Of a stretch of DNA of 35,014 nt, positions 3,130 through 35,014 are shown in pieces. Both the position numbers and the translations under genes were made by a program. The notes below the pieces were generated by a model. The model worked only from the letters and a program-made list of their open reading frames with translations, ran no database searches and was not told where the DNA came from. Within the stretch, counting starts at the first letter, position 1. The number at the start of each line of letters is the position of its first letter. Source of the stretch: a virus; the IMG/VR virus record IMGVR_UViG_3300046169_000054, positions 1-35,014 of that record; one strand, given 5' to 3'.

Positions 3130-3595
3130 TGCTATTCTTGCCCAGTATTTGATTGGCGAAATCCGTCCAATCTGTTTCCTTCTCATCTTCTTCTTTCGAG
3201 GGGTGACAGTCTGTCTTATCAGGAATAGAAGAAGATATATGACTAGTTAGTTTACTAGTTAAGTTACTAGTTCTATCTGCCAACCTGTCAGTATCAATAT
3301 GACTCTCTGTCACTACCCCCTGACTGTCTGTCACTACCCGCAACGTGTAAAGATTGCTCGTTTTCTTGCCGTCCTTGCCCTGATTTTTGACCTGCAAAAG
3401 ACCAAGCTCTTGCAAGCGGTTAATCTTGCGATGAACAGAGCGCGGAGACATGTTCGCCAGCTTTGCAATGCGAGAGACAGACGGGAAAGCCTGTAACTTT
3501 TTGTTAGCATGTTTAGCAATAACGACCAAAACAATCTTGCTTTGTGCGTCGCCACAGTCCTGCTCAACAGCCCATTCCATCGCCGACCAACTCAT
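3098..3595 (-). CDS. Replication initiator-like winged-helix protein (165 aa)
   Basis: Residues about 37-72 (FPSVSRIAKLANMSPRSVHR then KINRLQELGLLQVK) form a helix-turn-helix of the kind found in phage replisome-organiser/HTH_36 proteins. The N-terminus (MSWSAMEWAV) is also typical of that group. Residues about 86-131 are encoded by a stretch full of 13-bp iterons and CTAGTTA repeats, the arrangement known from lambda O, where the origin lies inside the initiator gene. The ATG overlaps the upstream stop as ATGA. The downstream genes could be loading partners. The HTH family is fairly clear; the initiator role is inferred from the embedded iterons and operon position. Confidence 0.65.
   Translation of the reverse strand: MSWSAMEWAVEQDCGDAQSKIVLVVIAKHANKKLQAFPSVSRIAKLANMSPRSVHRKINRLQELGLLQVKNQGKDGKKTSNLYTLRVVTDSQGVVTESHIDTDRLADRTSNLTSKLTSHISSSIPDKTDCHPSKEEDEKETDWTDFANQILGKNSNGRDDSKMGD
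3204..3333 (-). other. Origin-like iteron module A, inside the initiator gene
   Basis: Four 13-mers of the type TGACAGnnnGTCA lie at 3333-3321, 3312-3300 (21 bases apart, two helical turns), 3290-3278 (divergent) and 3216-3204. Between the third and fourth is an AT-rich stretch with repeated ACTAGTnA words, including TTAAGTTACTAGTTCTAT at 3259-3276 on the plus strand. Iterons next to an AT-rich unwinding region within an initiator gene is the classical layout of a lambdoid origin. The same arrangement recurs at 34419-34536 in the opposite orientation. Confidence 0.65.
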
Positions 3596-7601: not shown

Positions 7602-7940
7602 ATGAGCGGAACAGCCTACAAATGCGGTCAATGCAATGGGCAGGGTGTTCTGCTCATCAACATATCATCAGACGGGGAAGGCAACAGCTTTGTGGAGAAG
7701 CCTTGTCCTCTCTGTGAGGGAAGAAAAATGATTACAAAAGCAGAGCTAATGACGTGTCAAGCAGATGCCACGTTTGAACCCAGCGAAATGATTGCCATAC
7801 CGATGACAGGCGCAATGCGTGTCTATGTGGATGGCGAGGTATTCCAACGCAAGATGTCATCGCGTCAGCTATACAAGCTGGCACACTATGCGCTCGGCGT
7901 GGCGATGGAAACAGAAGCATATGAAAAGGAAAACAAATGA
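7602..7940 (+). CDS. Zinc-binding protein with two CxxC pairs (112 aa)
   Basis: CGQC (Cys 8, Cys 11) and CPLC (Cys 35, Cys 38), each followed by Gly-rich turns (NGQG, EGRK), form a DnaJ-type zinc knuckle. The C-terminal half (MRVYVDGEVFQRKMSSRQLYKLAHYALG) looks like a small separate domain. AAGGAG stands 8 bases before the ATG. The stop overlaps the next start (ATGA). A DNA- or protein-binding accessory in replication is likely; the precise partner is unknown. Confidence 0.6.
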   Translation: MSGTAYKCGQCNGQGVLLINISSDGEGNSFVEKPCPLCEGRKMITKAELMTCQADATFEPSEMIAIPMTGAMRVYVDGEVFQRKMSSRQLYKLAHYALGVAMETEAYEKENK

Positions 7941-8443
7941 AGCTAGATATTAAACTTGAGGTTACAGAAGATAAGCAAGATGCCGATGAGTTTACCATGT
8001 CAACCTGTGCAGATGCAGTCTGCCGCGTATGGGGAATCAAACGCTCTACATTGCTGTCAAAGACCCGCCCCAAATGGGTTGTAGAGCCGCGCCATGCCTT
8101 CATGTATCTCGCCTATTACATGACGGGCAACAGCACCCCTATCATTGGCAGGTTTCTTGGTGGGCGTGACCACACCACAATCATTCATGGACACCGCAGG
8201 GCATCTGAGTTGAAGAGGGCTGATAAAGAGTTTGCTCACAAGCTAGAGAAGGCATATCGCCTTGCACGGTTTTATGAAAAAAAAAGACGACGGAAAGTAG
8301 AGGCACTGAGAAATGAAATCACGCAGACCATTGGGCGTCACGTCGAAAGAGGAGAGCTTGAGGCCGCTGTCGAAAGAAGAGTGGCGCGAAAGGGCTATCT
8401 TCGCGGAGACCAAGTTGTCTTCAATAGCGTGTATCCCGAATGA
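7937..8443 (+). CDS. DnaA domain IV-like DNA-binding protein
   Basis: Residues about 52-92 (RHAFMYLAYYMTGNSTPIIG then RFLGGRDHTTIIHGHRRASEL) match the DnaA C-terminal DNA-binding domain, including the signature GGRDHTTIIH that reads the DnaA box. The AAA+ part is absent, so it could bind DnaA boxes without opening DNA, acting as a competitor or recruiter of host DnaA functions. The frame runs 131 bases into the next gene. A -1 slip in the A9 run at 8277-8285 would end it at TGA 8314-8316, overlapping the next ATG as ATGA, the usual junction here. The true end is therefore uncertain. Confidence 0.7.
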   Translation: MKLDIKLEVTEDKQDADEFTMSTCADAVCRVWGIKRSTLLSKTRPKWVVEPRHAFMYLAYYMTGNSTPIIGRFLGGRDHTTIIHGHRRASELKRADKEFAHKLEKAYRLARFYEKKRRRKVEALRNEITQTIGRHVERGELEAAVERRVARKGYLRGDQVVFNSVYPE

Positions 8444-8950: not shown

Positions 8951-9173
8951 GATTGTTGAGCAGCACACTGAGACTGCACTAAGAGAAGCGGAAGAGATAA
9001 AGAGGGTGGCGGAAACCATGAGCGGCTTTGCTGCCATGCAGAACGATAGGATTAAGGCCCTGCTGGATGATACCAGTTCTATTCTTTATCAGGTGGCGCA
9101 GTCGCTAGACGATGCACAAGATGAAGATAAACCTACTAAGATTATCCGCCCTGACCCAGAGGCTTGGCGTTAG
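8937..9173 (+). CDS. Unknown helical protein (78 aa), last rightward gene
   Basis: ATG 8937 (MDLIKIVEQ) has GAGGAG seven bases upstream; ATG 8931 is too close to that site. The protein is helical throughout (TALREAEEIKRVAETMSGF), with a disordered acidic C-terminus. Its stop overlaps the stop of the convergent leftward DUF5872-like gene by 3 bases, so the two transcription units meet here with no terminator visible between them. Confidence 0.6.
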   Translation: MDLIKIVEQHTETALREAEEIKRVAETMSGFAAMQNDRIKALLDDTSSILYQVAQSLDDAQDEDKPTKIIRPDPEAWR

Positions 9174-32643: not shown

Positions 32644-32864
32644 CAAGCCTCTCCGTAAATGCCATCTTCCGTAACGCGGATGGACGAAACAATCTCCATG
32701 TATTCGTCAGGCGAAATCTCCGCCATTTGACCACAATACGCAGATGCAAGCAAGGTCAAGTTCAACAGGTCATCCCAGTCAGTGCCAAGACCATTCAGGC
32801 CATCAAGGGTAGCAACCAAGATGTCAAAGTCATCTGTATCTTCTTCAAACTCAATATATGCCAT
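32643..32864 (-). CDS. Unknown acidic protein after the large terminase (73 aa)
   Basis: Very acidic (FEEDTDDFDILVATLDGLNG; GTDWDDLLNLTLLASAYCGQ) and helical, with IRVTEDGIYGEA at the end. The ATG overlaps the TerL stop as TGATG, so it is translated with the terminase. Possibly a small packaging accessory; I cannot name a family. Confidence 0.6.
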   Translation of the reverse strand: MAYIEFEEDTDDFDILVATLDGLNGLGTDWDDLLNLTLLASAYCGQMAEISPDEYMEIVSSIRVTEDGIYGEA

Positions 32865-34264
32865 CAGACTACCCAGTTCGCTTTCTCATAATTTATTGAC
32901 CTGTTCCATTTGTGCCGTGAGCCATCTTTGCCGATGCTGGCACGACCAGCGAAGGTCAGGCAGAAGGAGTCTGCAAGGTCAGGTGAATTTAGGCCGCGAC
33001 GCTTCATCTCGTCTTTGCTCTCAACCTTCAGCTTACCATTGGAGGTAAACTTAAAGCGTGGCTTCGACAGGTCGTCTATTAGCTCCTCTTGCGGCGGAAT
33101 GGTGCAGTCCCGCGACTCGAACCATTCTTTTGCGAGAAACCACAACTCATCTCGTAAACGCCCATATCTGTCTCCCATTGCAGGGGACTCTGCGACGTTG
33201 ATACCGCGCACAGGAAGGTCAAGTTCCATGAGGCGGTCAACAACGCCAGCACCAAGACCGATACTATCAACCAGTATTTCAGCAGGACGGTCGCCCCATC
33301 GAGTCGTTTCATATTCATTGAGGATAATCCCGCATACTTCCATAAGGTCTTTGTTGCGCCAAGTTTTGATAGGCTCTGTTACAACATTACCCTTGCGTTT
33401 GCATAGAGCTGTTTTGTCCGTACCGAAACGTGCCACGTCAAGACCCCATACAACGGGGGTGGTTTCTGCTGCTTCTTGCTCTCGCGTGGATGCTGACTGC
33501 AAGAGGTGCAGTGGTACAACCACGTCGTCGTCGGCTTCAGGCCACTCTCCAAGAACACGAACTCTGTAGATGTTGCTGTCTTCGCCATACTTGAGTTTCA
33601 TATCCTCCATGAAGGTTTTACTCACCTGAGTACTATCAGATGATGCGACCTTCATTGTAAAGAACCTATCTCTCATCTTATTGAAGGCTTCATAGAAATA
33701 ACCAGACGTACGAGTTGGGTTGCCCGTCATCACAGTCTTCGCACCCTCGGTGGACATCGCACCCTCTCCGACCTCGAAGATGATGTCGTCCACACCAGAT
33801 GCTTCATCAATCAAGAACAGCATATTGGGTGAGTGGAAACCTTGCAGCGCCTCTGGAGTTTCACGACGTGCAGTTCGGGCGACAGCAAAACTGTCCTGCC
33901 CACTAAGCTCAACTTTGTCAGACTTCACTTCAATTAGTTCTTTCAGGCCATCTGGCATACGACGATGCCACTTTGCGACCTCTGCCCATAAAATGTCTGA
34001 CAACTGACTAGCAGTGTTGGCAGTACATGCTATCCGACTGGGAGAGCGTGTCAATACCCACCAGAGAATCAACCATGAAAGAAATGCAGTCTTGCCGATA
34101 CCGTGACCAGAGCGGATGGCTACGCGGTCATTGTCCCGCACAGCATACAGAGCATTACGCTGCCACTCCTCTGGACTGGCCTGCAAGATAGACTCAACGA
34201 ATAATACGGGGTCGAGAGCAATGGCAAGCAATAGCTCCTCAACAGACATCTTTTCTTTTTCCAT
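32864..34264 (-). CDS. terL: Terminase large subunit (466 aa)
   Basis: Residues 51-59 RSGHGIGKT are the Walker A motif, 148-155 MLFLIDEA the Walker B with catalytic Glu, and TGNPT (180-184) the coupling motif. The nuclease domain shows GLDVARFGTD (Asp 276), ILVDSIGLGAG (Asp 333) and SPDLADSF (Asp 429 or 432), the three acidic sites of the RNase H-like fold. It drives DNA packaging and cuts the genome. The frame is open to 34432, but ATG 34264 has AAGGAG six bases upstream, so the first 56 codons of the long frame are rejected. It is the last gene before the gene-free terL-terS stretch. Confidence 0.93.
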   Translation of the reverse strand: MEKEKMSVEELLLAIALDPVLFVESILQASPEEWQRNALYAVRDNDRVAIRSGHGIGKTAFLSWLILWWVLTRSPSRIACTANTASQLSDILWAEVAKWHRRMPDGLKELIEVKSDKVELSGQDSFAVARTARRETPEALQGFHSPNMLFLIDEASGVDDIIFEVGEGAMSTEGAKTVMTGNPTRTSGYFYEAFNKMRDRFFTMKVASSDSTQVSKTFMEDMKLKYGEDSNIYRVRVLGEWPEADDDVVVPLHLLQSASTREQEAAETTPVVWGLDVARFGTDKTALCKRKGNVVTEPIKTWRNKDLMEVCGIILNEYETTRWGDRPAEILVDSIGLGAGVVDRLMELDLPVRGINVAESPAMGDRYGRLRDELWFLAKEWFESRDCTIPPQEELIDDLSKPRFKFTSNGKLKVESKDEMKRRGLNSPDLADSFCLTFAGRASIGKDGSRHKWNRSINYEKANWVV

Positions 34265-34693
34265 CTCTCTCTCCTTGTTATGATGGGGCGAGCCGAAAGG
34301 GAAAGAAGCCCGCCCCACCGTCGGGAGCGTCAAGGAGGAGAAACGCTCAACCGATTTTGTTATCTCCTCTGTTGCAAATATGACACAGGGCGGAGCGGTC
34401 TGCAAGGGGGTGGAGTGGTGACAGCGTGTCATGGGGTAGTGACAGCGTGTCAGTACCCCCCTGACAGAGTGGCGTATAGAACTAGTAACTTAATAGTTAA
34501 TATAATCTTATCTATCTTCTATATGACAGCGTGTCAGTACTAAATGAGAGGAAGAAAAAAGAAGAAAAAAATTTTTATGGGGGTAGTTACTTACGAGCTG
34601 TGGAGAACAGGGGGGGGGTGTTGGGGATAAGATACGGTGTTGGTTTATATATATACGTATAACGCACCCCCGCCGCTCAAATCAAAGGGGGGC
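34265..34693. other. Gene-free region between terL and terS (429 bp)
   Basis: No convincing gene. Contents: a GGGGCGGGC/GCTCGCCCC hairpin (34285-34316, minus-strand reading, one G-T pair) just ahead of the TerL ribosome-binding site; a second hairpin GAGCGT/ACGCTC (34325-34348); iteron module B (34419-34536); a run of nine Gs at 34610-34618 flanked by other G-runs; TGGGGATAA (34622-34630), 8/9 with a DnaA box on the other strand; and a TATATATATA stretch. The location beside both terminase genes also makes it a candidate packaging site. Confidence 0.6.
34419..34536 (+). other. Origin-like iteron module B (second copy)
   Basis: TGACAGCGTGTCA occurs at 34419-34431, 34440-34452 (21 bases apart) and 34524-34536; a divergent copy TGACAGAGTGGCG is at 34462-34474. 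Between the third and fourth is ATAGAACTAGTAACTTAA (34476-34493), identical to module A over 18 bases, then AT-rich DNA. Order, spacing and the GGGGTA linker between the first two iterons are the same as in module A, which lies inside the initiator gene, but on the opposite strand. It should bind the same protein. Confidence 0.7.
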
Positions 34694-35014
34694 TTAATCG
34701 CTCTTATCGCTCTCGCTCTGTTCTTCACTAAATTCTGCCTCTATTACTTGCGCTTTTTCGCTACGTTGTAACTCCAATGCGTTTTGCACATTGGATAGCG
34801 CGGCGGTTAGGCTATCGCTTGGCGATATCTCAGCATTTAAATTTATATTCTTGGGCATCAGGGTCGCCAATAGGCGCAAGGCTTCAATAGGCCGCTCATC
34901 TATCTCACTGGCTATGGTCTGAGCCAGTGCATCTTGCCCGCCGTGCTTCTCTATTGCCTTGTCAAATACATTTGCAAGCTGACTCGAAAGCCGTTGCCAG
35001 CCCCCACCATGCCC
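34694..35014 (-). CDS. Terminase small subunit-like protein, C-terminal 106 residues (cut by window edge)
   Basis: The frame is open from base 35014 down to the TAA at 34696-34694. It begins GHGGGWQRLSSQLANVFDKA and contains QDALAQTIASEIDERPIEAL, MPKNINLNAEISPSDSLTAA and an acidic tail. A TTG at 34879 is not a likely start, since the coding pattern continues upstream to the window edge. Joined to bases 51-1 it makes about 123 aa. Helical N-terminal part and acidic tail fit a small terminase subunit; the family is inferred from position next to TerL. Confidence 0.6.
   Translation of the reverse strand, partial: GHGGGWQRLSSQLANVFDKAIEKHGGQDALAQTIASEIDERPIEALRLLATLMPKNINLNAEISPSDSLTAALSNVQNALELQRSEKAQVIEAEFSEEQSESDKSD

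Follow-up and report, generated by a model that had tools for sequence, protein, structure and literature searches.

An origin-like iteron module between the terminase genes of a phage clade co-varies with the initiator and with the iterons of the initiator gene

What might an origin-like array of repeats be doing between the terminase genes of a phage, if a matching array lies inside its replication initiator gene? The window, by which we mean the whole 35,014-nucleotide stretch of viral DNA analysed here, holds two such arrays, module A within the gene of an O-like initiator and module B outside it (Table 1). The initial annotation rightly put module B beside terS; its exact place is between terS and terL.

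Table 1. Positions of the two modules and of their neighbours in the window
Feature	Position	Strand	Remark
O-like replication initiator, 165 aa	3098..3595	-	PHROG and Pfam matches, winged-helix model
Module A, in-gene origin-like module	3204..3333	-	four degenerate iterons
Module A iterons	3321-3333, 3300-3312, 3278-3290, 3204-3216	-	degenerate copies
Module A putative DNA-unwinding element	3217..3277	-	72.1% AT
terL, large terminase subunit	32864..34264	-	start 34264, preceded by AAGGAGAGAG
terL leader, two conserved hairpins	34265..34340	-	cross-type conservation
Promoter-like TTGCAG-N17-CATATT, between module B and terL	34377..34405	-	consensus resemblance only
Module B, second origin-like iteron module	34419..34536	.	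terS-terL intergenic region
Module B iteron 1, TGACAGCGTGTCA	34419..34431	.	exact match
Module B iteron 2, TGACAGCGTGTCA	34440..34452	.	21 bp from iteron 1
Module B iteron 3, divergent copy TGACAGAGTGGCG	34462..34474	.	
Module B putative DNA-unwinding element	34475..34523	.	49 bp, 81.6% AT
Module B iteron 4, TGACAGCGTGTCA	34524..34536	.	on far side of AT-rich stretch
terS-like gene, residues 18-123	34694..35014	-	named by position only

A search of the whole window found exact TGACAGCGTGTCA three times, always in module B, where the divergent TGACAGAGTGGCG makes up the fourth copy. This agrees with the earlier description of three iterons and a divergent fourth; the term 'perfect palindromes' used there was too strong, the iteron having the form TGACA-N3-TGTCA with palindromy confined to its arms. 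The spacings are 21, 22 and 62, not all multiples of three, so module B is not a maintained reading frame. Only a fraction of 5.7e-5 of the genome's 49-bp windows are as AT-rich as the 49 bp of module B or more so, and in every type measured (the window and seven contigs) the B-type stretch is 78-88% AT. The AT-rich side faces terS and the three to four iterons face terL, with one iteron beyond the AT-rich element in most B types; this layout holds in most of the types read, although L028 is less regular. Since an AT-rich stretch is kept in both modules, module B resembles an origin more than a set of binding sites, and it looks like a second origin-like element.

The initiator matches PHROG 1032, 270, 8540 and 391 (replication-initiation and O-like families; E down to 1.3e-21), and its N-terminal domain matches Pfam HTH_36. 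It consists of a winged helix (about residues 1-85), a linker encoded by the iterons and a conserved C-terminal tail, and the winged helix is confidently modelled (pLDDT 88-96 by blocks, residues 1-70). Searches of the PDB by sequence and by fold returned generic winged helices only, including plasmid Rep/initiator domains, and none was assignable. The gene itself holds iterons together with an AT-rich tract, as the lambdoid O-like class requires. On these matches the 165-aa O-like protein is a phage replication initiator. In lambdoid O/ori-lambda, too, the iterons lie inside the initiator gene with an AT-rich tract adjoining (PMC7466680), and the PHROG O-like families point the same way. However, a single in-gene origin is described there (PMC7466680), whereas a second matching module exists here, and the present initiator is only 165 aa long. 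Elsewhere in the window, positions 7937-8443 (+) encode a 168-aa protein with a Bac_DnaA_C domain (DnaA domain IV, DnaA-box-binding; E 6e-21), a phage-encoded DnaA DNA-binding domain that is possibly a second replication player.

Module A follows the same plan as module B, with degenerate iterons that read TGACAGACAGTCA, TGACAGAGAGTCA, TGACAGGTTGGCA and AGACAGACTGTCA on the minus strand. The likeness of the two modules had been reported from several details, and these held on inspection. The common 18-base stretch, ATAGAACTAGTAACTTAA, is the longest exact match between them; in each module the first iteron is 21 bases from the second, with (G/T)GGGGTAG joining the two; and the matching words do appear on in-frame translation, GVVTACQYPPDRVAYRTSNL for B and GVVTESHIDTDRLADRTSNL for A. 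Compared in 150-bp windows, B and A share 27-29 8-mers; the runner-up elsewhere in the genome shares 9, and the maximum in block-shuffled genomes was 12.

Module B could be a relic, i.e., a duplicated and functionless piece of the initiator gene that resembles A only through intragenomic gene conversion. The 18-bp identity and the translated words of the window would fit such an origin, as would the exact A/B stretches of 15-18 bp common in several types, and descent from a copied gene fragment, as first proposed, is plausible for the window. The GGCA and GGGCA types, however, have a longest exact match of only 11-12 bp and yet the same iteron motif in both modules. As some types share the motif only, the present-day similarity of A and B looks to be maintained by selection on binding. 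The noncoding module B furthermore keeps its iterons, AT-rich stretch, place and orientation. We therefore regard a functionless relic as very improbable.

The iterons of the window are more perfect in module B, where three have 5/5 arm pairs, than in module A, where none has. This is what a strong sink for the initiator would show. Module B might accordingly be no origin, acting instead in titration or handcuffing: as a high-affinity sink, or as a partner in bridging, it would restrain the firing of A and set timing or copy number; extra lambda origins do block lambda initiation in trans (PMC4488673). But better iterons in B are not a general rule, the GGCA type having the more perfect A. A sink needs no AT-rich element, and module B keeps one in every type measured; furthermore, B replicates along with A, which leaves their ratio at 1:1. 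A titration site thus seems unlikely.

In the homologous contig L012 the two ends of the window meet exactly and without a gap, so the window behaves as a circle, apparently a complete one, and terS spans the join. Residues 1-17 of the terS-like protein are encoded at window positions 51-1, giving a whole protein of 123 aa, and this protein has no Pfam or PHROG match. The distance from A to B on the circle is about 3.8 kb. Cumulative GC skew is lowest at 34274 (module B/terL) and highest at 9126; these extremes coincide with gene-strand switches, so the skew alone is no evidence for an origin. A longer terL open reading frame, up to 34432, would extend into module B.

The terL leader contains two hairpins. 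The first, TCGGTTGAGCG..CGCTCCCGA, has an invariant CTCCTCCTT loop resembling the anti-Shine-Dalgarno sequence, and in the second stem, GGGGCGGGC..GCTCGCCCC, several pairs are changed on both sides across types. They could serve translation control or be a packaging element; an Rfam search that included them gave no match.

The relatives of the window, all of them metagenomic contigs, came from IMG/VR searches that yielded six initiator relatives and 80 TerL relatives; four more viral scans, with other types of initiator as queries, added no contigs, and no close prophage or host came from a TerL scan of GTDB. A search of related genomes for paired modules had been suggested, and such pairs are present in the close clade, L014 being discordant. 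Module B is a swapped cassette, sitting in the same place between near-identical flanks while its iterons are wholly different (TGACAGCGTGTCA, TGGCACTGTGCCG, GGGCAATCTGCCC, TAGTCACCCTGACTA, GGACACTCTGTCC, AGTCTCTGTGTGAGACT and others, nine types in total). In the window, L007, L012 and L071, for example, flanks and TerL (94-99% identical) are near-constant while the iterons differ. The iterons within each contig's own initiator gene change together with B, contig by contig. Among close-clade contigs with both parts on one fetched stretch, B, upstream of terL, is the best second match to A in every case except L014, and two further contigs beyond this test are also concordant.

Taken together, A and B are concordant in 16 of 17 contigs (the window, L002, L003, L004, L005/L012, L006, L017, L018, L021, L022, L028, L071, L088, L090, L035/L148 and L034/L149; the exception is L001/L014). 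As contigs of one type are not independent, the effective sample is the nine types. We took one representative per type and counted the k-mers shared by every A with every B. Of 362,880 permutations, the identity pairing alone attained the observed score, and did so for each of k = 6, 7 and 8. In 8 or 9 of the 9 rows the B that paired best with an A was that of its own type, with partial cross-matching among the few related types (GGCA, GGGCA). The test was also run in a seven-type version.

Which protein reads module B? Its place between terS and terL invites the idea of a cosB- or pac-like packaging site bound by TerS. The site type fails to follow TerS. Compared with the TerS of L012 (GGCA type), that of the window (TGACA type) is 98% and that of L071 (TAGTCA type) 94% identical despite their different B types, whereas the TerS of L011, which has the window's own B type, is only 34% identical. 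TerS is thus uncoupled from B type and is not the determinant; since B type follows the initiator instead, we reject the TerS-binding reading and hold a packaging site to be extremely improbable.

The DNA-binding domain of the initiator does track iteron type. Whole initiators are 30-51% identical to that of the window between types, and 88% in L001 of the same type. In an alignment read by eye, the initiators of L005 and L006 have five differences in the first 85 residues, including Q55R in the predicted recognition helix, and from L005 to L006 the iterons of A and B both shift from (C/T)GGCA to GGGCA, the outer base changing from C/T to G. This is a correlation from one pair of contigs, and the contact is putative. 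Overall, the co-variation of A, B and the DNA-binding domain across nine types strongly supports the earlier proposal of one initiator for two sites on the circle, and the same protein very probably recognises both modules.

The discordant L014 has a window-like initiator gene (86% identical) and a TGACA-type A, but a GGCA-type B. From just past the end of the initiator gene it is 99.4% identical to L004 and carries the B type of L004. The anomalous part of the contig is its first 1.4 kb. The join lies inside about 50-85 identical bases common to both possible parents. Either mis-assembly or a genuine recent recombination may explain L014; in the latter case, B need not match at all times.

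Module B had also been described as an inverted copy of module A. This is true of the window and fails as a general rule, for the initiator gene is reversed relative to terL in L017, L018, L088, L028 and the L035/L148 contig. Module B lies 3.9-4.7 kb from the initiator start in every contig measured, flipped initiator genes included. As the layout of B is constant in most types while its orientation to A varies, what counts for B seems to be less its symmetry with A than its location at the terminase genes. The comparison of contigs reveals a two-site architecture, kept in place, in which B co-varies with A and with the DNA-binding domain of the initiator.

That the orientation of B to terL is kept and that of A is not would also suit late-gene control, in which initiator at B activates or blocks the terL promoter (TTGCAG-N17-CATATT) and ties late transcription to replication. 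This promoter-like sequence, immediately to the terL side of B, is conserved. However, its distance from B differs by tens of bases between types, and in L017 and L018 an extra gene-sized insertion of several hundred bases separates the two. Promoter activation in a fixed geometry is unlikely with such varying spacing, and the AT-rich element would be left unexplained; we judge late-gene control in general to be quite unlikely.

Contig ends cluster 200-420 bases upstream of terL, with 9 of 35 in one 250-base bin (L007, L009, L013, L016, L023, L026, L027, L030, L032, L038 and L043 form the cluster). This could come from homopolymer tracts, from a mixture of strains at the cassette or from physical ends of the genome.

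A second module turned up only within the close clade, where TerL is about 87% identical or higher. C72C1 (OQ984150) and L092-L099 resemble this clade in having TerL proteins 57-61% identical and an O-like gene with in-gene iterons; they differ in that the same k-mer test detected no second module in them, nor did it in four named phages with O-like genes. Some of these contigs are partial, and a diverged module could be missed by this test. That none was seen in distant relatives implies that B is dispensable over longer evolution. QHHSV-1, Pam5, Vibrio 1.151.O and C72C1 (L141, L143, L144 and L108) each have a single clear iteron array, of a type of their own, within the O-like gene. Arthrobacter phage Eesa seemed to have a second module, with 17 shared 8-mers against a null maximum of 15, but the stretch contained no iterons on reading and was rejected.

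The closest known arrangement is that of SPP1, in which oriL lies in gene 38, oriR is intergenic in the late region and both are bound by gp38, and fork stalling at oriR is the proposed start of sigma replication (PMC6316719, PMC3485210). In both systems one site lies in the gene of the initiator and a second in an intergenic stretch of the late region, and both sites carry repeats and an AT-rich element; here, too, a single initiator very probably serves the two. It is this arrangement of sites, with a second module outside the initiator gene that has the same repeats and AT-rich element, that we liken to SPP1. The SPP1 origins, in contrast, are 12-13 kb apart, compared with 3.9-4.7 kb from initiator start to B here, and B lies exactly between terS and terL, with nine swapped specificities among relatives.

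This parallel favours a second origin or fork barrier for B. We infer that the O-like initiator would bind TGACA-N3-TGTCA-type iterons at both modules, and that B would serve replication as a second, SPP1-oriR-like element; we put the probability of this reading at roughly 0.62. Module B would either fire as a second, possibly late, origin or, when filled with initiator, stall forks coming from A; that it acts in replication in one of these two ways is probable on the sequence evidence. In this way it would feed the switch by which circle-to-circle replication gives way to concatemers, the substrate that terminase packages. By analogy with SPP1, a role in the theta-to-sigma switch in particular is possible, and we propose it only tentatively.

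Second origin copies and the switch from circle to concatemer are understood mainly from a few model phages, e.g., SPP1. The present clade adds an independent case, in which at least nine initiator/origin-pair specificities are matched in near-constant surroundings. Because the surroundings vary so little, binding, compatibility and the role of the second site could be tested by simple plasmid swaps, and the initiator/iteron pairs would make an orthogonal set with which to map the reading of DNA by a winged-helix initiator. A more speculative and rather doubtful idea is that the iteron types are natural replication specificity groups within one marine phage clade, where competition drives change of the recognition helix. 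The competitors might then be co-infecting relatives, satellites or origin decoys, with each change copied into two origins, though we consider this equally conjectural. If true, one of these origins would be built into the packaging locus, so that replication and packaging would start side by side.
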